Shown piece after piece: positions 4,516 to 49,600 of a stretch of 64,000 bases of DNA. Every line of letters starts with the position of its first letter. Positions within the stretch are counted from its first letter, which is position 1. A program made the translations under genes and the position numbers. The notes below the pieces were generated by a model, which was not told where the DNA came from, searched no databases, and worked only from the letters and a program-made list of their open reading frames with translations. Source of the stretch: Patagioenas fasciata (lineage: Eukaryota > Chordata > Aves > Columbiformes > Columbidae); the NCBI RefSeq assembly GCF_037038585.1, contig NC_092523.1:2175001-2239000 (forward strand), in the 5' to 3' direction.

Positions 4516-6839
<2,324 letters not shown>

Positions 6840-16590: not shown

Positions 16591-17915
16591 CGACATGGCT
16601 GGTGGATGTGTCACCTGCATCCCGAAGTGGATGGTGGATGTGTCACCTGCATTCTGGAGTGAATGGTGGATGTGTCACCTGCATCCCAGTGTGGCTGGTG
16701 AATGTGTCACCTGCATCCCAGTGCGGCTGTGGATGTGGCACCTGCATCCTGGTGTGAATGGGTGGATGTGCCACCTGTATCCCAATGTGGATAAGTGGAT
16801 ATTGTCAACTTCATCCCAGTGTGAATGGGCGGACAAGTCACCTGCATCCCAGTGTGGTACCTGGCTGGACGTGTCACCTGCATCCCAGCGTGGTCCCTGG
16901 GTGGATGCACCACCTGCATTCCAGCATGGATGGGTGGATGTGTCACCTGCATCCCAGTGTGGATGAGTGGATGTGTCACCTGCATCCTGATGTGGTCCCT
17001 GGGTGGATGTGTCACCTGCATCCTGGCGTGGATGGGTTGATGTACCAACTGCATCCCAGCACAGTACCTGAGTGGATGTGTCACCTGCATCCCGGAGCAG
17101 TCCCTGTGTGGATGTGCCACCCGCATCCTGGTGTGGATGGATGGGCATGACCGCTGCATCCTGACATGGTCCCTGGGTGGATGTGCAGCCTGTGTCCTGG
17201 CATGGATGGGTAGATGTGCCACCTGCATCCCAGTATGTTCCCTGAGTGGACGTGTTACTTGCATCCCAGTGTGCATGGGTGGATGTGTCTCCTGCATCAT
17301 GGCACAGTCCCTGGCTGGATACACCACTTGCATCCCAGCGTGGATGGGTGGACATGTCACCTGCATCATGGTGTGGATGGGTGCAGTGTCACCTGCATCC
17401 CAGTGTGGTCCCCGGGTGAATATGTCACCTGCATCCTGGTGTGGATGGCTGGTTGTGTCACCTGTATCCCAGTGCAAATGGCTGGATGTGTGACCTGCAT
17501 CCCACTGTGGATGGGTGAACATGTCACCTGCATCCCGATGTGGTCCCTGTGTGGATGCACGACCTGCATCCCACTGTGGATGGGTGAACTTGTCACCTGC
17601 ATCCCGACGTGGTCCCTGTGTGGATGTGTGACCTGCATCCCACTGTGGATGGGTGAACATGTCACCTGCATCCCGATGTGGTCCCTGTGTGGATGTGTGA
17701 CCTGCATCCCACTGTGGATGGGTGAACTTGTCACCTGCATCCCGACGTGGTCCCTGTGTGAATGTGCAACCTATGTCATGGCATGGATGGCTGGATGTGT
17801 CAACTGCATCCCAGCGTTGTCCCTGTGTGGATGCGCCACCTGCATCCCACTGTGGATGGGTGGACATGCCACCTGCATCCCGACGTGGTCCCTGGGTGGC
17901 ACAGGTGGCCATGGC
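16590..17915. repeat. 33/36-bp minisatellite array (about 1.3 kb)
   Basis: About 38 units. Short units are about 33 bases (GTGGATGTGTCACCTGCATC + CCAGTGTGGATGG); long units insert TCCCTG and are about 36. Between about 17,514 and 17,750 the two alternate as a 69-base dimer, repeated four times with alternating AACATGTC/AACTTGTC. Unit lengths are multiples of three, so long open frames appear on both strands without being genes. Confidence 0.93.
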
Positions 17916-18059
17916 CACGGGGACTCAACTCAGGAGCTGACGGTCCCCTCGAAGGGCCCCCGACCCCCCTGCCCAGCTCCAGGTTTCCTCTGGGGCGAGG
18001 AAGAGGAGGCCGGGTGCGCGGGGGCCCGCGCACGGCCCCGTCCCCACCTGCGGAGTGGT

Positions 18060-18290
18060 GGCAGGGTATGGCCCTCTCTAAGTATACGCCACGGAAATGT
18101 GCACATTTCCTAAAAGCAATATGGAACAGCTAAATATACTGCTCACAAATCTGTTTACACTAATAATGGCTGGGAGCCTGCCATCCATATGACTGCAAGG
18201 AACCATTGATTCAACATAAATTAACTGAAAATTACTTGCGAGAGGAAGAAACTCATTGAATTTTATAGTTAATTCTTTTTTTTTCTGTTT
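18060..18290. promoter_or_regulatory. Candidate conserved regulatory element B
   Basis: AT-rich unique block beginning abruptly at the end of GC-rich DNA (CTCTCTAAGTATACGCCACG). It contains TTACACTAATAATGGCTG, GCCATCCATATGACTG, CATAAATTAACTGAAAATTA and TTTTATAGTTAATTC. Motif density resembles a developmental enhancer. Confidence 0.45.
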
Positions 18291-18664
18291 GTCTTTCGTT
18301 TTTTTGGGAAGGGGGAAACGTGGAGACATTGGCACCTTCACTACCAAGGGCTACGGCTGCGTTTGGCATCAGCTCCGCAATTTCCATGCCGACCCCTCTC
18401 CCCATCCGCAGCAATGGGGACCGGGACACCCAGCGATCCGGGCTGTTCATCCCAGCACCGGGAAGCTGAGCTGAGCCTGGGCTAAACAAACACAATATTT
18501 ACCCGTTTTCCAAGAAACACTGATGGAGATGGAAAGGTCCGAGTGATTATTTTGGCGCGGGTAGATTGCTAATTGTTTAAATTAAAATTACAAAAAAAAA
18601 AAAGGAAGAAAAAAACCCCCCGAGAATTGGCAGCTCCTCACGTATTAGTTGAAATGCTGCAGAC

Positions 18665-19289
18665 TTGGCTCCCGCTCACCTCCGCAACATAATGTTAAAT
18701 GGCATCAAGACAGTATATCAGTCATTTACATATGTTGCTTATAGACGCCAAACTTAATAACACAATAAAACTGCTGCTAAGAAGCTTTCCTGCCTATTTT
18801 TCTGCTGGAGAATGGCAGTGTTGGAAGCACCTAACTGCCTCGTATGGAAACACACGGGGTTGCCTTTCATATGGCACCGGGGAAAATAAACATCTGACTC
18901 ACGCAGGGTCCCCTTCCGACCACTTTCGGAGCAAAACAGGAGGAAAATTCATTGATTCAGAGACCACCAGCACCCCAGAACGGGCTTTGAAGCCCCAGCT
19001 CCGAGGTGTCCCCAGCTCCCTATTCTGGAAACGCTGGGAGGGGGACCCTGGCTGATTCATGTATTTATTTTCCTGGGTGCCATATGAGAAGCAACCCCGG
19101 GTGTTTCTATACGAGGCAGCTAGGTGAGCCAACAGCGCTGCTCTCGGCGCGGGAAAAGAGGCAGGAAAGCTTCTGAGCAGCAGTTTTATTGTGTTAATAA
19201 GTTTGGCGTCTATAAGCAACATATGTAAGCGGCTGCTACACCATCTCGATGCCATTTAACGGTACGTTGAGGAGGTGAGCGGGAGCCAA
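18665..19289. repeat. Long inverted repeat of a conserved-looking element
   Basis: The left arm is 18665-18913 and the right arm 19041-19289, with a 127-bp spacer centred at 18,977. By eye the arms are about 80-85% identical, nearly gap-free. A 69-bp core (18726-18794 against 19160-19228 reversed) has only 2 mismatches. The core includes CATATGTTGCTTATAGACGC and AACACAATAAAACTGCTGCT. It does not match CR1 and has no terminal tandem site duplication that I can see. Confidence 0.9.
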
Positions 19290-19588
19290 ATCCGTCGATC
19301 TCCCCTAAAATAACCCTGCCTTGTCCCCACGGGGTTTGGGGGGGACTCTCCCAGCATCCGAGCAGGGATTCCCTGTCTCCCCGTGGGGTTTTTTGCCTTG
19401 CACCGGTGCAATCTTGCAGGGGATCTTGATTTCTCAGCTGCTGGAGCAAAGAAGGGAAAAGTCCGATGCGGGGGTCACGCTCCGGTGCCACCCGAGGGAG
19501 CACCCGAACCCTCCCTGGGGCTGGAGGAGGAATTTCCTGTGTCGAAACTTTGTGTCAAAATGTCAAAATGTCAAAAAACGCATTTCTA

Positions 19589-19812
19589 GCACTCAGGCTG
19601 GACATGGGGGAGAAATTGTTGGCCCTGAGGGTGGTGAGAGCCTGGCCCAGGTTGGGCAGAGAGGTGGTGGATGAAGCATCCCTGGAGACATCCCAGGCCA
19701 GGCTGGACGGGGCTCTGAGCAACCTGAGCTGGTGAAGATGTCCCTGCTCATGGCAGGGGGGGCACTGGGGGAACTGGGAAGGTCCCTTCAACCCAAACTA
19801 TTCTATGATTTA
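19589..19812 (+). mobile_element. CR1 LINE 3' fragment (type A)
   Basis: CTCAGGCTGGACATGGGGGA ... CAACCCAAACTATTCTATGA. Confidence 0.92.
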
Positions 19813-20745
19813 TGAGGAAGGACTTGGGGAACCCCCAGAACCCCAGCAGCACTGTCACCCCTGGGGAAGAACATGGAGCTATGGATGCTGCCCAAAAGCC
19901 CAGGTGTGTCAGCACTGCTGCCCTCTGTGGACCCCAGCGTGGGTGAACCAGCTCATCACCCCACTCAATCCATGGGCAAACAGGGGACATGGAGTCCCCA
20001 GGGTCAGGGGAAAGGTCCCCAAGTGCCCAACCTCTGCACATCACTTTCAACTAATGAGTTGTAACAATTTTCCCCAAGACTGTGGTCCTGTGGGACCACC
20101 TTGTTGAGCAGGAATGAGCAGAGCAATCTCTGTCCCTGGCGTGGGTGGAACCTCAGCACCGAAATGGGCATTATCACCAACATCCGAGGTGTCATAGCTC
20201 TCTGAAAGGCTTTATCAGGCCTACGGGCACCTGCACAATCATCTCAAGATGATTCAAGGTCTGGAGATGATCCTTTCAGGCTCTGGGGGTTCAATGCCTC
20301 CAAGGAGCTGGGTGCAAAATCCTGTTTGCTTTGCAAGTGCAAAATCCCCACTCATGACACGTGGCTGTAGCCACCGAAGCCACAGCTGTGTCCACACCGA
20401 ATGGAACTTCAAGATCTCCCATGTTTGAGTACGTTGGAAGCCCACCAGGACCCATGGCACCAGAGCTCACATCTGTGCAGGGTTTCTGTACCAACATCGT
20501 GGTCAGGCCGTGCCAGAGAGCTGAGGGTGGATGCAAACCCCGTGGAAAAGCCAGCGTGACCTTCGCATAGGTGGGTGAGGACCAAACAGCACCTTCTCTT
20601 GCTGGACTGACCTCTGCCAGCCCATAGCTACATGATCTGGCTGGCGTGGTGGTGGGATCCTCTCTCAGTATCAACCTGACTCCATAGACTGAAGCTATCT
20701 CCCATCCATCAATGTATCTACCACCATCCCCAGCATTCCCATGTC
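19813..20745. other. Intergenic, unique
   Basis: Nothing recognised. Confidence 0.5.
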
Positions 20746-22480: not shown

Positions 22481-24453
22481 GAGATGGGGTGCGGAGGGGA
22501 GATGCTGCCGGCGGGAGCACCAGCGCCCGCCCGACTTCTTATTTGTATTTATTTCCCCCCCACACCGCGCAGAAGATGCTGAAAAGCGGCGAAATCCGCA
22601 GGAAACGAAATCACGGCCCCGCGCAGCGCTCCGCGGCTCTGCCCCCGCCCGCTGCCAGGGGCGGAGGTTCCGCACCCCCGGGGAGCGAAGGGAACAGCGA
22701 GCAAAGAACGAAATTAAACGTAAAAATTGAATTAAATGGATTTCAATGACATTCTACAAGCGGCCCGGAGCCGGGCAAAGCTCCCGCGGGTGAGCCGAGC
22801 GCTGGCCCCGTAGCTCCCTTCCCTTTCCGTTTTTCCTCTTGCCTTTCCCCTTCCCCTTTTTCCTCTTCCCCTTCCCCATCCCTTCGCGGGTGCGCCCTGG
22901 TGCTCTCCCCCCCACCTTATTGCAATTTTTTACAGAAATATATATATTTAAAACGCAGATGATTTGTTTCCTCGCTCACTTTCGGGAAGAAAAACTGAAA
23001 ATAAGAGCGCTCTGGCCACGCTCTCCATTCATAGGCTTTGATTTCTGCGGGATTTCATGGATTTTATGCGCCCCCCCCCGCTCCCCGTTTCTTCCCCGCG
23101 GGTTCTTGCGGGAGCGGCTCCGCGGAAAGGCCGCGGCCGCGCAGCAGCGCTCGGGTGGAAGGATCCGCGGGTGCCCTGCGCGGAGTATTTCAATGCAGCC
23201 AAGTGGAAAATAGACTTTCAACCCCTTTTGTGCGGGAGGGGAGGGGAGGGTTGGCCCCCCCGCCTCCGCGGAGCGGCAAAACTCCGAGCAGAGCCAAACT
23301 GCGGAGTGAACTCGGGACCGGCCCGCGCAGCGGCTGCGCGCCCGCGCATCCCCCCGAGCTGCCGAAAAACACCCCAAATGGCGAGTTGTTCGGGATTTAT
23401 TATGGTTTTTTACTATTATTCCCAGCGCAGGATCGGCCCCGTGAGAAGAGCGGCCTTTTGTCCGGGGGCGGAAGGTCCTGTCTTTGGTGGGGGGGACGCG
23501 GAGGGGAGCGGAGTTTGCGCGGGAGGCGGGGAGGAGGATTTCACTTCACCCCCCCTCCATCCCTCCCGCCCGGCCGGAGCTCCCGGAGCCGCGGAGTTAC
23601 AAACAGGGGCTGCGAGGGGCTTAAAATACAAATAAAGAGGAAAAGAAGAAGGGAAAGGAAGGGAAGGGAAGGGAAGGGAAGGGAAGGGAAGGGAAGGGAA
23701 GGGAAGGGAAGGGAAGGGAAGGGAAGGGAAGGGAAGGGAAGGGAAGGGAAGGGAAGGGAAGGGAAGGGAAGGGAAGGGAAGGGAAGGAAAGGAAAGGAAA
23801 GGAAAGGAAAGGAAAGGAAAGGAAAGGAAAGGAAAGGAAAGGAAAGGAGGAAAGGATTATATTTTTTTAAAAAACGGAACGAAAAAGAAAGAAAAATGAA
23901 AGAAAAAAAAGAGAAAAATAAAAAATAAAAAATAAAAAGAAGGAGGAGGTAAATAAAAAAAAAAAAAAAGACGATTTTTAAAGGACGCTTTTTATTTTTT
24001 TCTAAGAAGAAGGAAAAGAAAAGCCCCGCAGCCGGAGCCCCTCTCCCACAACTTCTCGGCGCGGCTGCGGGAGCGGCTCCAGTCCAGTTTTTCGGGCGCT
24101 CTCTGTCTCCTGTGCCTCCCCTGCCCGCCCCTGCCTCCCCCTGCCCGCCCGGCCCCCGACCCTGCCCGGGCCCGAGCAGGTGAGGCCGCCCCCTCCCTCC
24201 TCCGGGGCCCCGCCAGGTACCGGCCGTATTTGTACCGGCTGCCCGGGGTGCGCGGGTGCGTGGGCGCCCGCGGGTGGGCGGCGGGGCGGGTGTGTGTCCG
24301 TGTGTCTGTCCGTGTGCGCTGCCCGGAGCGGGGGGGGATTGGGGGGGGGGGGGGGGGAAGGTTTCTTTACACACACGCACCCGGAGGAACAGCCCCGCTC
24401 CGACCCCCGCCCCCCTCCCCTTCCCCTCCCCATCTCCCCTCCCGGCTCAAACC
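22480..24453 (+). promoter_or_regulatory. EMX1: EMX1 CpG-rich 5' region (promoter and probable 5' UTR)
   Basis: CpG density rises at about 22,480 and stays high through exon 1, broken only by the purine tract at 23,640-24,000 and an AT-rich island at 22,920-23,060. GC boxes are frequent between 23,090 and 23,600 and between 24,010 and 24,450. No TATA box or start site can be assigned. A 17-base G run (24341-24357) lies about 97 bp before the ATG. Confidence 0.6.
23640..23850. repeat. (GGGAA)n then (GGAAA)n pentanucleotide array
   Basis: About 28 GGGAA units (23,655-23,785) pass without interruption into about 12 GGAAA units (to 23,848). A-rich purine sequence continues to 24,000. It lies 600 bp upstream of the EMX1 start codon. 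Confidence 0.96.
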
Positions 24454-24820: not shown

Positions 24821-27800
24821 GTGAGAAACGGGGCGCGGAAAGAGAGCGGGGGACGCCACCCGTTAAACCGGGGAGGCCGAGGGAGAACCGGAGGGAAAAA
24901 CCTGTTGCTGCGGTGCCCGCACGCACAGCCGGTGCTCCGGGCGATTGCACCCCGGTGCCGAGTGCGTTTGCACCCCGCTGCTGTGCGTTTGAACACCGGT
25001 GCCGAGTGTGTTTACACGCCGGGGCTCTGTGCGTTTACACAGCGGTACCGGAGTGCGTTTGTACCCCCGGTACGGATGCGTTTGCACAGCCGGAGCTCGG
25101 TGCGGTTACACGCTCCGTGCTCGGTGCAGTTAGGCACCCGGTGCTCGGTGCATTCGCACACTCGATGCATTTGCAGACCCGGTGCTCGGGTGCAGTTACG
25201 CACCCGGAGCTCGTTGTATTTGCACACTGGGTGCATTTGCACACTGAGAGCTCGGTGCATTTGCAAACTCGTTGCATTTGCACACTCGGTGCACCCGCAC
25301 GGCCGGTGCGGTGTCCGGGCAGAGCCGGTGCCCTGGGGCGGGGGCTTCGGAGCGCGGTCCCGGGCGGGCACCGCGGGGCTCCCGGGGACGGTCCCGGCGC
25401 TGCCGCTTCCCTGCGCGGCCCCGCGGCTGCCGGAGCCGGGAGTTGGGATTTCTCGGGAACGAAGGGAAAGATCGTGAGGGATCTCGGCTGCGCAGGGAGA
25501 TTTTGTTTGTTTTTATTGCTTTTCTCTTTATTCCTTCTCTTTAGTTTCTCTTCTCTTCTCTTCTCTTCTCTTCTCTTCTCTTCTCTTCTCTTCTCTTCTC
25601 TTCTCTTCTCTTCTCTTCTCTTCTCTTCTCTTCTCTTTTCTCTTCTCTTCTCTTCCTCTCTTCCTTTCTTGTCCTCCCTCTTCTCTCTTCTTTGATTCCC
25701 GACTTGTGTCCGTTTATTTTCTCTTTGCTTCTCTCATTTTCTCTCTCTCCTTTTCTTATTTTCCTCTTTCATTTTCCTTCTCTGTCTGTGTCCTTTCCTT
25801 TCCTTTCCTTTCCTTTCCTTTCCTTTCCTTTCCTTTCCTTTCCTTTCCTTTCCTTTCCTTTCCTTTCCTTTCCTTTCCTCTCCCTGTCCATCGCTGTCCC
25901 CTCGCTGTCCCCGCCGCCATGCCCCGGGGGTCCCGATCAGGTTTATCTGCTCGGCACGGACCGGGGATCGCGGCCGCTGGCGGCGGCGCCCCGGGGCCCC
26001 GGAACCCGCTGCGGCCCGACCGGCCCGGCCCGGAGCGGCTCCGGCCCCTCCACCTGCTGCCCGGCCCTGCCCCCGGCCCGCCGTGTCCTCTTGCTTTCTC
26101 TTGCCTCTTCTTTCTCTGTTTATTATTATTTTCTTTTCTTTCCATCATTTCTTTCTACCTTTCCTTATTGCATTTGCTTTATCTTTCTTTGATCTTTTCT
26201 TACCCTCTTGCTTTCCTTCTTTTTTTCTTTCCCACTTTCCTTTTCTCTTTCCTTCTCCCTTTCACATTTTCTTACTCTCTCTTTCCCTCTCTCTTCCCTT
26301 CTCTCTTTCACTCTTTCTTTTCCTTCTGGTCTTTGCCTTATTTTTTTTCCTTTCTCACTTCTCCCTTTGTATTTATCTCACTTTCTTACACTCTCTCTCT
26401 CTTTCTCCTCTCTTTAATCTTTTTCTCTCTCTGTTTTTTTCTCTGCCTTTCCCTTCTTTCTTTCCTCTTCCTCCTCTCCCCATCTATACTTTCTCTCCTT
26501 CTCCTTCTCCTTCTCCTTCTCCTTCTCCTTCTCCTTCTCCTTCTCCTTCTCCTTCTCCTTCTCCTTCTCCTTCTCCTTCTCCTTCTCCTTCTCTTTCTCC
26601 TTCTCTTTCTCCTTCTCTTTCTCCTTCTCTTTCTCCTTCTCTTTCTCCTTCTCTTTCTCCTTCTCTTTCTCCTTCTCTTCTCTTCTCTTCTCTTCTCTTC
26701 TCTTCTCTTCTCTTCTCTTCTCTTCTCTTCTCTTCTCTTCTCTTCTCTTCTCTTCTCTTCTCTTCTCTTCTCTTCTCTTCTCTTCTCACTTTTCTTTCTT
26801 TCTGCAATTTTGGCTCAGGGAAGGTTCCCAGGGCCTCCCCAACACCCCTTCTCTCTCCTCCCCGCTCTCCCCCACACCTCCCAGTCCCACCACGGGGAAA
26901 ACGCAGGTTTGGGAGGGCCGGGAGGTGCCACCCGCTGACCCCGTTGTGTGTCCGCAGGGAGCGAGGTGTCCCAGGAGAGCCTCCTGCTGCACGGCCCCTT
27001 CGCCCGCAAGCCCAAGCGCATCCGCACGGCCTTCTCGCCATCGCAGCTGCTGCGCCTGGAACGGGCCTTCGAGAAGAACCACTACGTGGTGGGTGCCGAG
27101 CGCAAGCAGCTGGCCAGCAGCCTCAGCCTCTCCGAGACCCAGGTACGGCCACCGGTCCCACTGTCTGTCTGTCTGTCCGTCCAGTTCAGCATCAGCGACC
27201 GCACCGACCCCGCTGCGCTTTGCATAAATCCCAGCTGGGTTCGGCTGGGAATCCTGCGTTGAAATGGGGGCCGAACCGTGCGGATTGGTGATATTTTAGT
27301 ATATGGGGTATTTTATTTTTCCGCGGCGTTTGGTCATTACGATCACCCAGCTTGAGGTTTGCGTCGTGCTGCTCTCCGGAGTGGTTTTCTGGTGTTATTT
27401 CTTGCTTGTTCGGGGTGTTTTCCCTGAGAGTTTTAAAAATGCAGTCAAAAGAAGGAGCAGCAGCATGAGTCCCTTCCCCAGTTGTGCTTCGGTGTTGGAC
27501 ACAAACACCACGGGGCCCGAAAGTCAGGATGGGTGTGATGCTGGCACTGATTTCAGCTGCAACTTTCTGATTTTTAGTGAAGACATTTCAGAGGTGTTTA
27601 GATATGGGAGAACCGGGGGGATGAAGGGAAACGGAAAGGCAAACGGTGCTGGGGGAAAACAGGAGTCAGGGCTGAGCATCCGTGTGTGTGTGTCCGAGGT
27701 CGGTGTCTTGGTGAGCAGCTGTTCCCAAAGATTCACCCGTAATATTCAGTAACTGAATGCACAGAGAAAGTTTTCTCCAAATTCTGGGTAGGTAGTTTGG

Positions 27801-30800
27801 CCTATTCTCTGAAATAATTTATTTTCTATCCTTTAATTCAATTGGAAAATAAAGCTGGAGCTGTGGGTGTTCCCAGTTACCGCCTCGGTGAGGAAAACCT
27901 CCAAATACATCCTTGCAGAGGGAATTTAATGGGAGGAAAATGTCACTGGCACGGGGACAGCGGGAAGGTGACGGTGTGGATATCGGGGAGAACGCCCCAA
28001 AAATCCAGAGGCTGTTTGTGTTGTGGTGCTGATGCCGTCCCGACCTCCCGGCTTGGAGGGCACAGGAGGAGCCGGCATCACAACCCATGTTCTCGCTGCT
28101 TCTCTCACCTTTTGGGGATGAAAATGGTGTTAAAAGGAAAAACAAAACGAAACAAAAGCAACCAAAAGGTCAAAGAACAAACAGCAACTTGTCCGGGTGG
28201 AAAGGGCGGCTGCGGGATGCCCGAGGGGGAGCTCAACCGGCCCTCGCATTCTGCAGCGTTGCCCCGAGCCTGAACGCAATAATGCAGTTTATTGGGGAAG
28301 CAGCAGAGGCATCCCGCCCTAAATCCGGGTGGAGATTAGAAACAGAGAGAGGCAATATGGATATATATTTGTACGCAGTGGTGTTTATTTTGTAGGGTGG
28401 TATTTGTGTGGTTTTGGAAAGCTCAGCGCAGGGTAATTCAGCACCTGAGCGTGGGTCACGGGCGGAGGCGTCCGCGGGGAAAAGAGCATCGGGCTCGGGG
28501 CCGGCGGCGGCAGCGAGTCAATTATTATTGTACATTATTGGTTTATTATTATTTTATAAGTCTATTACTTTAAATAATCTTTCTTTTAAAAAATACTTTA
28601 TTTTAATTATCTGGAGGGAAATAACCCCCATGTACGGAGGGGCATGGGATGGGGATCGAAGTACAGGTGCTGGTGGGGAGGGAGCAGCAGTCTGGCTGGT
28701 GGCTGGGCCCAAAGCAGGCATATTATTATTATTATAATTATAATTATAATTATTATTATTATTATTTAATCCATATCCTACATGCACGCAACCCTCCCGT
28801 GGAAAACTCCTCGCTGACACGCGTCCTTTGTGTGACACCGGGTGGCACAGCCGCATTTCCCCCCTGCAGACACCCAGCCCCAGGGCCGAACCCGCGGGTG
28901 GTGCGTTTCGTTATTTTCCAGTGGATTTAGCCGCTCCGAGAAGGCGCTGCCGGTTACGGCTCTGCCTGCCCCTATTTCCCAGCTGCTTTTTGCCCCTGGA
29001 AAAGGGAGTTTTGCCATTTCTTGGGGTCCCCCAGCCGGGGAGCAACACCTGGAGCAGCCCCGGGGGAAGGTGCAAAGGGGACAGGTACCTGCCCAGCATC
29101 AGGAAATGCCTTGGGATACAGGGTGGGGAAGGGCAGGCGTGTTTAACCCCTTCCCGTCCTTTCTCCTGCCGAGTCTGGGATGAGAAAGGCCCATGCAACA
29201 GTGACAAAAAGTAGAAAAAGGGAATGGGAGAAAATCCAGCAGCAGCACAAGGTCCCGAAGCAAACGTGTGTGTTGGAGAATGGGATGAGGCTGGAGGGCT
29301 CTGGGGTGGCTTGTGCAAGAGGAGACGTGGGGACACGTGGTGCGTGTGAGCTGGTGGCACAAGGAGCGTGACGGTTGGGGTGTCATGGGGTGGGATACGT
29401 GGGGCGGGGAGCAGCTGGGGGTACAACACTGTGCCCATCACCGGTGGCATCGGGTCGTTTCACCTCCTTGGGGAGCGCGCTGGGCTGGGGAATAACTTCC
29501 CTGAGTTAGTTTTGCACGATGCAGCCCGCATCTCCCCCCCCAGCATGGGGTGCAAACCCCCTTGGGGTCTCAAATCTGTACCCCCAAAGCAAAGGCCTCA
29601 CCCCAGATCCTGCCAGCGGGAAGTTTTGGGGTGATCATGGGGGCACCGTAAATCTGAGCATCCCCTCCTGACTTTGAGGTGATCATGGGGTCATCGCAAA
29701 TCTGAGCATCCCCTCCCGGCTTTGGGGTGATGATGTGGGCACCATAAATCTGAGCATCTCCTCACAGCTTTGAGGTGATGATGTGGGTGCCATAAATCTG
29801 AGCATCCCCTCCTGGCTTTGGGGTGATGATGTGAGCACCATAAATCTGAGCATCTCCTCACAGCTTTGAGGTGATGATGTGGGTGCCATAAATCTGAGCA
29901 TCCCCTCCTGGCTTTGGGGTGATGATGTGGGCACTGTAAATCTGAGCATCCCCTCCCAGCTTTGGGGTGATGATGTGGGCGCCATAAATCCCCGCATCCC
30001 CTCCCAGCGTCGTGCATGCAGGGACAGGCAGTGGTCCCCAGCTGAGGACCATCCCCAAAAACAAGCTCTTAAAAGTTCTGGGGTGTTTTTTAGAAGAGAA
30101 GTCCTGGCTGGGACTGCAGGCGTAGCTGAGGGTGCCTGGGGAGCTCTGCTGCCCTTGGAGGGGGTGGCACATTGGGGTGACAGCCCGGGTGTCACTGTGT
30201 CTGTCCCCAGATGATGGGGCTGGTCCCTCTCAGTCACTGGCCAGACCCATCTTTGTGCTCCCAGCCTTCGGCAGCGTTTGGGTTGGTGTCCAGGGGAGCT
30301 GCGCACGAAGCCGCTGGATTTTAATTGTCCCCACGTGGCGATGGCAATGTCACCTTTCGGCCAGAGCTGATTCTCTGGGTCCCGAAGCAGAGTGTGATTT
30401 CCAGGGGGATGTGACAGCCCGGAGGGTGCAGTGGATGGGAGCTGTGTCCAGAGGCAGCACCGGGATGCAGGAGCCGTGCAGGGACCATCCCCATCCCTTA
30501 GGGATGCTGGTGACATTGGTGTGCTGGGCAGGGACCCCGGGAGCATCACAGCAGTTGGATGCGCAAACACCCGGCGTGACAACAGTTAATGGCATGGGGG
30601 TTTGGGAAGGGATAAAACCCCCAAGCTTGGGGGTTTAAACCAATTACTCCTGGAGTCAGGATGAGGCTCGTAGGGGGCAGCTTATCCCCCCATGTCCCAC
30701 TGTGAGGTTCTCACACTTCTCTCATCACAGCTTCTGGTCTGCTGGAGACCAGGGATCGGAGGGGTCGGGGAGCCCGTCCGGCCTGGAATCGTCCTTGTTC

Positions 30801-33053
30801 CCGCAGGAGAGTCGGGAAGCGCCGGGAGCCTCATCCCGTCCCCGGCCGTTTTCACCGAGCTGGGGAGCAAAGGATTTACACACCAGAGCCGCTTCACACC
30901 CACCCCAGATTTCCACAAGAGCCTCACTCAAGCATCTTAATTGCTTTATGCCTTAGTTTCCCCTTCGATAATTCAAGGATAAGGCAACTTCCCCGCTCCC
31001 AGAGGTCTGAGAGCTTTAATTAAAGTTTGCAAAGTGCTTTGCAGTCCTTGAATGAAAGGCAGCAGCTCAGTATTGTTCCAGAAATGCCCCAAAGCTAGGA
31101 AAGCAAATGGGTTGAGTCCAGGGCGGGGGGGTTATATTATATCCTGGTGCCATAAAGCAGCTGTTTCAATAGACCAAGCATGCTTTAAAGTCAAGGGCTC
31201 GTCCTGCTTCTTGCAGCACCCTGCGAGGGTTTTGCTCACCTGGGGGATGCAGCGAGGTGTGAACACCGGCCTTCGCCTCACTGGGAAAGGCTCCGGAGCG
31301 GAAAGCGCTGCCTGCAGTTAATGCTGAAGGAGAAGAAGGGACAGGGGGTGACAGTCCTGGGGGATGAGGGGCTGCGGGCGCTGCGTCACCTGCAAGCGGG
31401 TAAATGCTTCAGCCTGGCCTGTGTTGGGCTGGCAGCGGCAGCCGAGCAGCGGCACCTAGTGTCCTGCGGGCCCGGGAGAGCGGGCAGCACCGCACCGCTG
31501 CCCGCAGCATCCTGCATCCCTCACTGCAGCATCCTGCATCCCTCACTGCAGCACCGCACCGCTGCCCGCAGCATCCTGCATCCCTCACTGCAGCATCCTG
31601 CATCCCTCACTGCAGCACTGCACCGCTGCCCGCAGCATCCTGCATCCCTCACTGTAGCATCCTGTGTCCCTAACTGCAGCATCCTGCATCCCTAACTGCA
31701 GCATCTACACTGCTGCCTGCAGCATCCTGCATCCCTCACTGCAGCATCCCCACCTCTGCTTGCAGCATTTGCACCGCTGCCTGCAGTATTCTGTAGTATG
31801 GAGAGGGTCGGGCTCTGCTCCCCAGGAACAAGCACCAGAGGCAGAGGAAACGGCCTCAAGTTGCACCAGGGGAGGTTGAGGTTGGATCTGGGAACAATTT
31901 CTTCTCCAAAGGGCTGTGGGGCATTGGAACAGGCTGCCCAGGGCAGTGCTGGAGTCACCATCCCTGGAGGGCTGGACAGACGGACAGGAGGTTCTCAGGA
32001 CATGGGGCAGGGACAGGGGTGGGGGAACAGTTGGACTCGATGATCTTGAGGGTCTTTTCCAACCAAAACGGTTCAGTGATCCTCAGCTGCAGCACCCTGC
32101 ATGCCCAGCCACATGGGTGCCCACAGCACGGCCCCCCCCCACCAACCACAGGGGTGCTCTGAGCACCCCAAACCCACCACCGTGTCTGTGCTGCCGTGTC
32201 CAGCCCCCCATGGGGCTCAGCGCTGCCATCGGGGGGTGCAGGGTGGGAGGGTGATGCTCAGGCAGAGGAGGGTGTCATGTCCACGGATGGAGACCCCGCT
32301 GCGTCACTGGGCTCCTGGGACAGCGTTTGGCCACCGTTGTGGTGGAAAAGGTTTCCTGACACCTCAGTGAGGTAAATTAATTATAATTGTAATTATAATC
32401 TATCTATAATTAGCTACCCGGTTACACAGAGTCCGGCCCATGATGCCGCCCGGGCGCTGGGCCGCAGGTCCTGGCTGGAGCTGTGGGGCCAGCTCTGCGT
32501 GTCACCCCACGGGGCTGTTGGGTTCAGCTGCTCCCGCTGCCCTGTGCCCATCACCAGACACCGGGGTGATGGGCACCGGGGTCGTGGTGCTGGAAGGAGG
32601 GTCCCATGTGGCTGCAGACCCCGTGGCTGAGGTGGGGCTGAGTGTCCTTCACCCCTCTTGGGGCTCAGCAAGGCTGGGAGGTGCAGCAGCACCATGTTTG
32701 TCCCCTTGTCCCACCTTGCTGCAGACACATGGGAAACCGAGGCAGGATAGGGTGGCCAGGGGAGCACAGGGGACACAGGGACATCTTTTCTGCTCATCTC
32801 CAAGGAACATGGAGCTCGCTGCCTGGTTGCAGCACTGTCCATCACCGGGACCCCCCCAGCGCTGATCTCTCCCTCTCCCCCCCAGGTGAAAGTTTGGTTC
32901 CAGAACAGGAGGACGAAATACAAACGGCAGAAGCTGGAGGAGGAAGGACCCGACTCGGATCAGAAGAAGAAAGGTTCCCACCACATCAACCGATGGCGTC
33001 TCGCCACCAAGCAGTCGAGCGGAGAAGACATCGACGTCACCTCCAACGACTAA
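24454..33053 (+). CDS. EMX1: Homeobox protein EMX1, complete, three exons (24454-24820, 26958-27142, 32886-33053)
   Basis: The spliced frame gives 239 residues, a little shorter than mammalian EMX1; the difference lies in the N-terminal Gly/Ala-rich linker. EMX1 is a nuclear homeodomain transcription factor (empty spiracles family) that specifies dorsal telencephalon. In order: [16 protein letters not shown], with an eh1-like Groucho-binding motif FTIESLV at 10-16; an Ala/Pro-rich linker; a hexapeptide-like FYPWVL at 107-112; a homeodomain at about 141-200 with Trp188, Phe189, Gln190 (position 50), Asn191 (position 51) and Arg193; and the acidic tail ending EDIDVTSND. The intron between homeodomain positions 44 and 45 is a classic site. 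The start MFQPxAKR is invariant in the family and AACCATGT is an acceptable context. HHINRWR and EDIDVTSND favour EMX1, and SPR/SFXN5 synteny excludes EMX2. Confidence 0.97.
24918..25318. repeat. Degenerate minisatellite in EMX1 intron 1
   Basis: About 15 imperfect copies of a roughly 20-30 base unit CGGTGCTCGGTGCATTTGCA-CACC, beginning less than 100 bp after the exon 1 donor. It is CpG-rich at the left and AT-richer at the right, as if CpGs decay with distance from the island. Confidence 0.85.
25543..25675. repeat. (TTCTC)n pentanucleotide array in EMX1 intron 1
   Basis: About 25 TTCTC units, almost perfect, with one TTTTC variant near 25,635. Confidence 0.95.
25793..25880. repeat. (TTTCC)n pentanucleotide array in EMX1 intron 1
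   Basis: About 17 perfect CCTTT units. Unique GC-rich sequence follows (25,880-26,090). Confidence 0.95.
25880..26090. other. GC-rich island inside EMX1 intron 1
   Basis: CpG-dense unique sequence between two pyrimidine-rich tracts, with GGCGGCGGCGCCCCGGGGCC and repeated CGGCCC motifs. No splice-flanked exon or protein motif was seen. It could be an internal promoter or simply part of the EMX1 island. Confidence 0.4.
26091..26490. repeat. Polypyrimidine-rich stretch in EMX1 intron 1
   Basis: T/C content is very high on the + strand with no fixed unit. It joins the arrays on either side. Confidence 0.8.
26491..26787. repeat. (TTCTCC)n, (TTCTCCTTCTCT)n, (TTCTC)n composite array
   Basis: There are three successive blocks: hexamer to about 26,590, 12-mer to about 26,675, then pentamer (TTCTC) to 26,787. 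The array ends 170 bp before exon 2. Confidence 0.95.
26958..27142 (+). CDS. EMX1: EMX1 exon 2 (first 44 homeodomain positions)
   Basis: The acceptor TGTCCGCAG is followed by GGAGCGAG. The exon encodes residues 123-184: [20 protein letters not shown], then homeodomain helices 1 and 2, through SLSETQ. The donor is CAG|GTACGG at 27143. Conservation to human is almost complete from LLLHGPFAR onward. Confidence 0.97.
27143..28715. other. EMX1: EMX1 intron 2, left part
   Basis: Unique. AT-rich patches at 27,290-27,350 and 28,515-28,620 carry repeated TTATTATT and TTTAATTATC and could be regulatory. No exon seen. Confidence 0.45.
28720..28768. repeat. (TTA)n/(TAATTA) microsatellite
   Basis: ATTATTATTATTATAATTAT followed by its near mirror; partly palindromic. 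Confidence 0.9.
28769..29620. other. EMX1: EMX1 intron 2, middle
   Basis: Unique, nothing recognised. Confidence 0.5.
29622..30010. repeat. 48-bp minisatellite in EMX1 intron 2
   Basis: About 8 units of 48 bases, each with AAATCTGAGCATCCCCTCC and TTTGGGGTGATGATGTGGGC. In the middle, CTCCTCACAGCTTTGAGGTG units alternate with CCCTCCTGGCTTTGGGGTG units, making a 96-base dimer. Confidence 0.93.
30011..30944. other. EMX1: EMX1 intron 2, unique
   Basis: Nothing recognised. Confidence 0.5.
30945..31078 (+). mobile_element. MIR-type CORE-SINE remnant
   Basis: TTATGCCTTAGTTTCCCCTT, then GATAATTCAAGGATAAGG and TTTGCAAAGTGCTTTGCAGT with CCTTGAATGAAAGGC. This order matches the 3' half of ancient amniote MIR elements (GCCTCAGTTTCCCC ... 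TTTGTAAAGCGCTTTGAGAT ... TGAAAGGCGC). It is diverged, hence old. Confidence 0.6.
31490..31798. repeat. 22-bp minisatellite in EMX1 intron 2
   Basis: About 12 units of GCATCCTGCATCCCTCACTG+CA, interspersed with GCACCGCACCGCTGCCC segments to form larger repeats of about 60-65 bases. It abuts a CR1 copy. Confidence 0.9.
31800..32082 (+). mobile_element. CR1 LINE 3' fragment (type B) in EMX1 intron 2
   Basis: GAGGGTCGGGCTCTGCTCCC ... GATCTTGAGGGTCTTTTCCA; the tail is degraded (GGTTCAGTGATCC). Confidence 0.92.
32083..32885. other. EMX1: EMX1 intron 2, right part
   Basis: Unique, with an AT patch at 32,371-32,415 (AATTATAATTGTAATTATAA). The last 25 bp form the C-rich tract of the exon 3 acceptor. 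Confidence 0.5.
32886..33053 (+). CDS. EMX1: EMX1 exon 3 (recognition helix and C-terminus)
   Basis: The acceptor CCCCCCAG is followed by GTG AAA GTT TGG. The exon encodes residues 185-239 starting [16 protein letters not shown] (recognition helix), then [19 protein letters not shown] and the terminal EDIDVTSND, with stop TAA at 33051-33053. The frame is phase 0 and joins exon 2 exactly. Confidence 0.97.
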
Positions 33054-38880: not shown

Positions 38881-39616
38881 AGGAGGAGGAGGAGGAGGAG
38901 GAGGTGGAGAAAATGAAGAAGCCGGTGAAGGAGGTGGAGGAGGAGAAGATGATGAAGAAGAAAAAGAACAAGAAGACAAAGAGCAGGGAGAGGAGAGGAG
39001 AGGAGAGGAGAGGAGAGGAGAGGAGAGGAGAGGAGAGGAGAGGAGAGGAGAGGAGAGGAGAGGAGAGGAGAGGAGAGGAGAGGAGAGGAGAGGAGAGGAG
39101 AGGAGAGGAGAGGAGAGGAGAGGAGAGGAGAGGAGAGGAGAGGAGAGGAGAGGAGAGGAGAGGAGGAAGAGAAGAGAAGAGAAGAGAAGAGAAGAGAAGA
39201 GAAGAGAAGAGAAGAGAAGAGAAGAGAAGAGAAGAGAAGAGAAGAGAAGAGAAGAGAAGAGAAGAGAAGAGAAGAGAAGAGAAGAGAAGAGAAGAGAAGA
39301 GAAGAGAAGAGAAGAGAAGAGAAGAGAAGAGAAGAGAAGAGAGAAGAGGAGAGGAGAGGAGAGGAGAGGAGAGGAGAGGAGAGGAGAGGAGAGGAGAGGA
39401 GAGGAGAGGAGAGGAGAGGAGAGGAGAGGAGAGGAGAGGAGAGGAGAGGAGAGGAGAGGAGAGGAGAGGAGAGGAGAGGAGAGGAGAGGAGAGGAGAAGA
39501 GAAGAGAAGAGAAGAGAAGAGAAGAGAAGAGAAGAGAAGAGAAGAGAAGAGAAGAGAAGAGAAGAGAAGAGAAGAGAAGAGAAGAGAAGAGAAGAGAAGA
39601 GAAGAGAAGAGAAGAG
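38881..39616. repeat. Alternating (GGAGA)n / (GAAGA)n pentanucleotide megasatellite
   Basis: After a GGA/GAA-rich lead-in (38,881-38,985) there are four blocks: AGGAG-type (38,985-39,165), AAGAG-type (39,170-39,340), AGGAG-type (39,348-39,495) and AAGAG-type (39,496-39,615). Units within a block are essentially perfect. It is pure purine on the + strand for over 600 bp. Confidence 0.97.
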
Positions 39617-46600: not shown

Positions 46601-49600
46601 TAAACTTTTCCCAGACATCAAAAATTCAAGTGTTCTCCATGGATCCACTCGCTAGGGATGGAGATGAGGGAATCGGCGTTTGCTAAGGAAGGAGATGAGG
46701 AAATTGGTGTTTGCTAAAGATGGAGATGAGGGAATCGGTGTTTGCTAAGGATGGAGATGAGGGAATCGGCGTTTGCTAAGGAAAGAGATGAGGAAATCGG
46801 TGTTTGCTAAGGAAGGAGATGAGGAAATCGGCGTTTGCTAAGGAAGGAGATGAGGAAATCGGCGTTTGCTAAAGATGGAGATGAGGGAATTGGTGTTCAC
46901 TAAGGATGGAGATGAGGGAATCGGTGTTTGCTAAGGATGGAGATGAGGGAATTGGTGCTCACTAAGGATGGAGATGAGGGAATCGGTGTTTGCTAAGGAT
47001 GGAGATGAGGGAATTGGTGTTCACTAAGGATGGAGATTAGGAAATCAGTGTTTGTTAAGGAGTATCTCAGACCTACAGCCAACTGAAGGTGACCTGACAG
47101 GTGATGGAATTTGAGAAATTCCCCATCTCACCCGAAAACCTTTTGATTAAATAACGTGAGATGTTTCCCACAAGATACAAAGCCCCTGGTTAAGGAGTCC
47201 AAGCAACAGTGGAGCTACAAGACCTCTCCATATCTCACTTCAAAGCCCATCAGCCATCCCATGGCTGGTGTTTTCCTACATTCAGACCACCAGCTTTGCA
47301 TTTATCCATTTGCTACACCAAGGAGCCACCTCCTGCCAGAAATTTTCCTCCCATGAAAGTATTCAGAGATCATTAAATCCCCTTTGTTAAAATCTGCAGA
47401 CAAACCTCATTTTTCTTCTCTGCAAGGCAGATTATTGCTTGAAATACTGGTGTTAAAGCTCTTTTCTGACCACTTCCCAGTCTCTCTACATAGTTAAATT
47501 CTATGTACCCCAAAACTGGACACACTGTTTGAGAGATGGTGCTGGTAACAAATAACTTCATAATTACCTGATGCTCAGTTTGCTGGATAAAGTACAAAGC
47601 TGGGGGAAAGCAATTTAGAGACAAGCCTGAATTTTATTAGGTTTTCCTTCAAAATAATAATAATTGACCTTAAGAGCTGACCGGTACAATTCCCTTTTTG
47701 TTTCTCCAAGCCTTTTAGACACCTCTCTTCTAAAGAAACATTCAGCTTTCTAAGAAAAAAACACTGCATAGACAAAATGTTTTTCTCAAAAACATGGAAA
47801 CAGGTTATTTGCCTCCATTTCCACCCGTGATGCTGGTTGTTAATAAAACATAAGCGGAGCCTGCAAAGCCGCCGGGTGTCCCTGCACCCATCAAGGTGTC
47901 CGAATCCGGTCCCACCTGGGACGCCAGCGCCCTGTGGTTCAGTGGGAGCCCTCTCATGGCTTTGGGGTCGGTACAAGGTGGGAGGGCTGGACCCCCCCAA
48001 AACGCAAGGATCAAAGAGCCGGCACGGAGGCACCGAGCCGGGACGGGGTTAGAGCCTCCTTTCTCGCCATCCCTGCTTTGATCAGCTCCTTTTGTCTGAC
48101 ACGCCAAGGTATGCGGCCGCAACGGGGACTGACATTCCCCAAGGGCTGCGACGCTCCCGGCCACCTCGCTGCAAGGGCGGACGTGATCTTCCAGCCGAGG
48201 AATCAGCCTTGGTGGTCAGGTAGAGCCCATGGGCGCTGCGAGAGGAGGCCGAGCATCCTCAGGGCACGTCCGCACGGCCTGGAGTCTGCGATGGTGTGGT
48301 CCAGGGCAGCGGTGAGGCCAGCAGAAGATGTTGTGGGGAGGCAGCGGCTTTGGGAAGAGTACTTAAAAGTACTTAAAAGTGGCTCATAAGGAACCTGGGG
48401 ACAGACTTGAGAGCAGGACCTGTTGTGATAGGACAAGGGGTGATGGTTTTAAACTAAAGGAGGGAGATTCAGGCTGGACATGAGGAAGAAATTGTTGGCC
48501 CTGAGGGTGGTGAGAGCCTGGCCCAGGTTGGGCAGAGAGGTGGTGGATGAACCATCCCTGGAGACATCCCAGGCCAGGCTGGACGGGGCTCTGAGCAACC
48601 TGAGCTGGTGAAGATGTCCCTGCTCATGGCAGGGGTGGCATTGGATGAGCCGTGAGGGTCCCTTCAACCCAAACTGTTCTATGATTCGATGACACTGAGG
48701 GCTGGGAGATGCTGGACAAGCAAATAGGTCAAACCTCTGGTGCTCTGGAGACATCTATTTAGAAAAAAGATTCAAATTTGTCATGTACTCCTTCATGAAG
48801 GCAACAACTACCATTTGTGCTTGGCTTATATTTGTAATTAAGTCCTGGCAAAGCCTCACCCCAGTGATCCGAGCCTACAACCAGAACCCTGAAGCACCAT
48901 TGTGGGAGAGCAGGTACACTCGTGGAGTCAGAGGTTCCTCTCTTACATGCTTGGAGGTAAAGCAAAGCCGGTAGCAGATAAGGACAGCTCAGGAATATGC
49001 AGATAAGAACAAGTTCAGGAGTGCATTTAATTTATACCGCCCTCTTACCACCATGTAAGTAGATTGATGTGTAATTCAGTGCCTATGTAAAGTATGGAAC
49101 TATCAGGCAATGCTTCTTTTTTGGTTACAAATTGGGAAGTATTGCCATGTGGCCTGGCAGGTGGGTGACCTGTTCAATCCCTGCAATGTAGTAGATTTGT
49201 GGGGGATTTCACATAAGTGGCTCTGAATTCAGAACCCTGCTTCCAAACAGTAAGTTTTTAGGGATATATAATTTATCTGTAGACAGTGAACCAGGGTTAC
49301 ACCGACATGCAAGCGAGTAATGAATCACAGAATCACAGAATCATAGAATCATAGAATAGTTTGGGTTGGAAGGGACCTTCAAAGGTCATCTAGTCCAACT
49401 CCCATGCACATTGACACCACAGATGTATCTCGGTGCTGCTGTCTAAGCTCCGGTTGGACATACCTAGAACTGGCATTGAAAAGGACCATTGCTTGGAATT
49501 AATTTCATCTCTGTTTTCTCACCCCCTCTTGAAACAATAAAAAGGAGGAAAGTTGGAATATTTGGCTGCTCTGGCTCCATTTCAGAAGCTTTCTCTGGTT

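Follow-up and report, generated by a model that had tools for sequence, protein, structure and literature searches.

In vertebrates, duplicated conserved noncoding elements (dCNEs) are found by paralogous developmental genes, and reporter tests show enhancer activity for some of them, as described in the available text of PMC1896008 and PMC2781166. The same available text dates many dCNEs to genome duplications. The locus described here resembles such elements as they appear there, in that two related noncoding copies lie by a developmental transcription-factor gene. Unlike those dCNEs, whose copies lie near paralogous genes, the two copies sit in one locus, in inverted orientation and 119 bp apart, and no copy was found in the 200 kb around EMX2, where a dCNE of the paralogous-locus type would have one. 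The available text of PMC1896008, PMC2781166 and PMC2579482 nowhere uses the word "inverted".

A second kind of described structure is the product of template switching during replication. Template-switch events leave perfect inverted repeats, according to the accessible part of PMC7954356. The present pair likewise consists of two inverted copies, close together, of DNA that is otherwise single-copy, but its arms have diverged to 83% identity, unlike the perfect repeats of that account. Among the matches listed in our literature searches, with subscription literature mostly outside their scope, none concerned this element, and literature queries with pieces of its sequence returned 0 papers.

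An inverted pair upstream of EMX1

The window, meaning the whole stretch of 64,000 nucleotides that was analysed, corresponds to C4:2175001-2239000 of a genome of 1.45 Gb in 359 contigs. It carries two genes on the + strand that we take to be SPR and EMX1 from their protein motifs. SPR-like motifs are found at 4576, 4837 and 6645 to 6839; EMX1 has its ATG at about 24454 and homeobox exons near 27017 and 32892. This arrangement fits the neighbours named in an earlier note on this DNA, which had been made from the sequence alone and which proposed a head-to-head inverted duplication between the two genes. When EMX1 from the window was used as a query, the next best genome locus was C11:36088950-36091806 (91% and 82%), which is taken to be EMX2. 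A distance of 5.2-5.8 kb separates the pair from the EMX1 ATG downstream of it, and its neighbours on either side are a 69/138-bp minisatellite (16601-17899) and a multi-copy repeat (19593-19815) that is presumably CR1-like. The pair has the following parts:

18662..18917, + strand: left arm, from local alignment with the right arm; a genome DNA search returns the left and right arms only
18918..19036, no strand: spacer of 119 bp, which matches nothing elsewhere in the genome search
19037..19292, - strand: right arm, the inverted copy, from local alignment and genome search

Local alignment in inverted orientation pairs arms of 256 bp each, with identity in 217 of 261 columns (83%) and differences made up of 34 substitutions and 10 gap columns. 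The alignment score of 302 compares with a maximum of 28 among random pairs (n=500, first-order Markov chains of both sides), which bears out the inverted duplication. The identity of about 80-85% estimated by eye also holds. Two arms around a spacer are present as had been described, at sizes of 256 and 119 bp and not 249 and 127 bp, the arms being 3-4 bp longer at each end. MAFFT places the arms in 257 aligned columns with one gap per arm. When they are compared without gaps, 206 of 256 positions are the same and 50 differ, 21 of the 50 inside one 32-bp linker. What these comparisons establish is arm-to-arm similarity within one genome.

The pair was found at a single locus. Genome DNA searches with the whole element, with the left arm and with the spacer plus right arm returned this locus only, and a 28-mer from the core described below occurs twice in the genome at up to 3 mismatches, both times in this pair. 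In a control for these searches, an EMX1 exon 3 query returned itself and one 49-bp match elsewhere and missed EMX2 exon 3, which is 76% identical over 183 bp. Since a DNA search can miss relatives at 76% identity, our claim is limited to the statement that no close copies were found. Within that limit of sensitivity only this pair is present in the genome, and not the many copies elsewhere that the earlier note had named as evidence against its proposal. Its further statement that the element is not CR1 is supported by the genome search, which pairs the arms only with each other, and by the searches of the window and the EMX2 region that follow.

Relatives at lower similarity were sought in the window and around EMX2. 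The arms have no further match in the window at E 0.01. A paralogous copy at EMX2 was rejected: blastn of the arms against the 200 kb around that gene gave a best E of 0.14 (67% over 76 columns), which we regard as a chance match, and a profile of 103 positions made from both cores (R1) found only the window's two cores in 264 kb that included the EMX2 200 kb. As a base rate from the same 264 kb, close inverted pairs number 6 in the window and none in the 200 kb at EMX2. Of the 6, this pair is the only one with an arm that matches nothing else in the window in inverted orientation, against 3 to 8 hits over the arm for each of the other five. Scans of viral_contigs and genome_contigs for exact 22-mers found 0 matches, as expected of collections with no other vertebrate.

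Uneven divergence along the arms

Differences between the arms are unevenly distributed, and the arms can be divided into the following segments:

18665..18683, + strand: outer identical block of 19 bp, with its mirror at 19271-19289
18726..18795, + strand: left core, 68/70 identical to the right core
18796..18827, + strand: scrambled linker of the left arm, 32 bp, with 21/32 positions different from the right-arm linker
18828..18917, + strand: inner block of the left arm, with its mirror at 19037-19126
19127..19158, - strand: scrambled linker of the right arm, 32 bp, the same length as that of the left arm
19159..19228, - strand: right core, 68/70 identical to the left core, also located by the 28-mer pattern search

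The core, given in the earlier note as 69 bp with 2 differences, measures 70 bp with 2. A run as long with at most 2 differences appeared in 0.19% of 20,000 column permutations (P 0.002). With the linker removed, the best run spans the cut at a length of 76 columns, and 0.83% of permutations equal it (P 0.008); in the same analysis, a test of how unevenly the differences fall over 16-bp bins gives P 0.013, and a post hoc Fisher's test of the core against the rest gives P 0.002. A longest perfect run of 31 bp could well arise by chance (P 0.10, or 0.28 without the linker). The core is therefore tighter than its surroundings, as had been suggested, by a margin that is moderate and not overwhelming; the 70-bp core is only moderately improbable by chance and was chosen after the fact. 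Homogenisation from arm to arm would yield the same core pattern, so the pattern by itself establishes neither the ancient origin nor the purifying selection that the earlier note proposed.

The inner blocks contain identical runs of 9-12 bp common to both arms, including TCATATGGCACC and GGAAAATAAA. The linker is scrambled in sequence between the arms, yet equal in length. The arms also differ in composition: GC content is 0.508 in the right arm vs 0.453 in the left, and the CpG count is 12 vs 7. Sites with A/T on the left and G/C on the right number 28, and the reverse is seen at 14 (linker included).

Coding potential and motifs

A 118-codon frame is common to both arms, starting from the ATG at 18699 and 19255 and open through most of each. 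Differences in this frame are spread 17/16/17 over the codon positions, and Pfam has no match for either copy. A coding exon was rejected on these two grounds, and the pair has the noncoding character expected of a conserved noncoding element or enhancer.

We scanned both arms with 22 motif patterns. Eleven match at least one arm, and 9 of the 11 have a same-position site in both, among them two CATATG, CAATAAA, a forkhead-like ATAAAYA, GTTGCY twice and TATAAG. Sites for TGASTCA and GTTAAT and one CAKMTG occur in one arm only, and neither arm matches the TAATTR and TAATKA homeodomain, POU, TCF/LEF or SP patterns. Motif sharing is weak evidence either way, given the homology of the arms and the high frequency of short motifs.

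A proposed duplicated control element and its alternatives

We favour the reading that the pair is a local inverted duplication of a single-copy noncoding EMX1 control element with a constrained core, and put its probability at about 0.5; as between a duplicated gene-control element and a mobile repeat, the former is most likely. On this reading, noncoding DNA present once, some 5 kb upstream of EMX1, was copied locally and inverted, for which a replication template switch would be the simplest route, and both copies were retained. Each arm is probably an enhancer-like module that binds transcription factors in the control region of EMX1, laid out as a 70-bp core and an inner block with a linker of fixed length that is free to vary; the core, predicted to be dense in binding sites, would change slowest. 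We infer a regulatory function, EMX1 as the target gene and purifying selection on the core from the location and the uneven divergence. The single locus found, the clustering of identity in the core, the even spread over codon positions, the location and, with the reservation given below, the CpG ratio speak for this reading; the lack of a copy found near EMX2, the after-the-fact choice of the core and the ordinary length of the longest perfect run speak against it. If both arms are functional, the pair would be a local inverted enhancer duplication beside a pallial patterning gene, and a natural test case for enhancer copy number and symmetry.

The main rival is a strong one. The pair is possibly a neutral, functionless inverted duplication, in which the core became identical again through quasipalindrome correction or gene conversion and the other parts drifted. 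Identity is indeed patchy along the arms. At neutral rates of 1.5-2.5e-9 per site per year, the divergence outside the core and linker (27/154) corresponds to about 40-67 My, a fit that requires no constraint and a date that is too young or too old if the sequence has been constrained or homogenised. Short-range template switching both makes inverted repeats and turns near-perfect ones into perfect ones, as reported in the available text of PMC7954356. Correction or conversion of the core would act through the hairpins or cruciforms that arms 119 bp apart form. On the other side, the single gap per arm over 257 columns may hint at mild constraint. A developmental homeobox gene also lies within a few kb, and single-copy noncoding DNA in such a position is often regulatory. 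Should the arms have no function, the pair would show how template switching with homogenisation can mimic selection in a single genome.

A stronger version of the regulatory reading, that of a deeply conserved mirror-image EMX1 enhancer, is improbable. It would have two head-to-head modules long under selection, with a symmetry that matters for pallial EMX1 expression and that would hold two binding platforms in opposite orientation at a constant distance.

Rather less probable again is that the inverted repeat is transcribed into a long hairpin RNA from which miRNA or siRNA arise. For the + strand the predicted structure is a single hairpin of -403.9 kcal/mol (z -27.6, 20 shuffles), a strong fold of the kind that any inverted repeat would give. 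The 20 transition differences split into 10 G-U and 10 A-C on either strand; no G-U-preserving or compensatory bias is seen among them, and pairing is not preferentially kept on either strand. An RNA family was rejected: Rfam gave 0 matches at the gathering score in the whole window and, below threshold, 5 weak matches in 18000-19600, of which the best, mir-612, scored 19 bits where the gathering score is 100.

The relic of a hairpin (MITE-like) transposon is no better placed. Inverted arms do flank a spacer, as in such an element, but none of the genome searches given above, with the element, its parts or the core 28-mer, found a second copy, although old diverged MITE copies could escape a DNA search of the sensitivity given above. 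A multi-copy transposon is unlikely. Least probable are two divergent promoters with first exons: the outward strand has TATAAG and, further out, a donor-like site (GAG|GTGAGC) at the same positions in both arms, but 18684-18725, between the two features, holds 12 of the 29 non-linker differences, motifs this short often arise by chance, and the arms do not share their other donor-like sites (one left, two right).

Surroundings of the element

Windows of 200 bp with any overlap with the arms have a CpG observed/expected ratio of 0.44-1.05, against 0.06 in the four whose start is at or beyond 19601, a contrast that is exaggerated because the low-CpG windows begin inside the repeat that we assume to be CR1-like. 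The higher ratio in the arms is compatible with low germline methylation, a comparison confounded by that repeat. An AT-rich stretch (18480-18660) adjoins the left arm and may be part of the same regulatory block; a genome search with 18090-18661 gives, elsewhere, just two short A-rich matches (36-42 bp).

Long purine/pyrimidine tracts of (GAAGG)n, (TTCTC)n, TTCTC/TCTCCT and (GGAGA)n occur at 23648-23847, 25546-25663, 26423-26799 and 38987-39616, placed upstream of, within and beyond the EMX1 exons. Other minisatellites are found at 46651-47061, 29625-30008 and 31484-31768, with units of 31, 48 and 64 bp.
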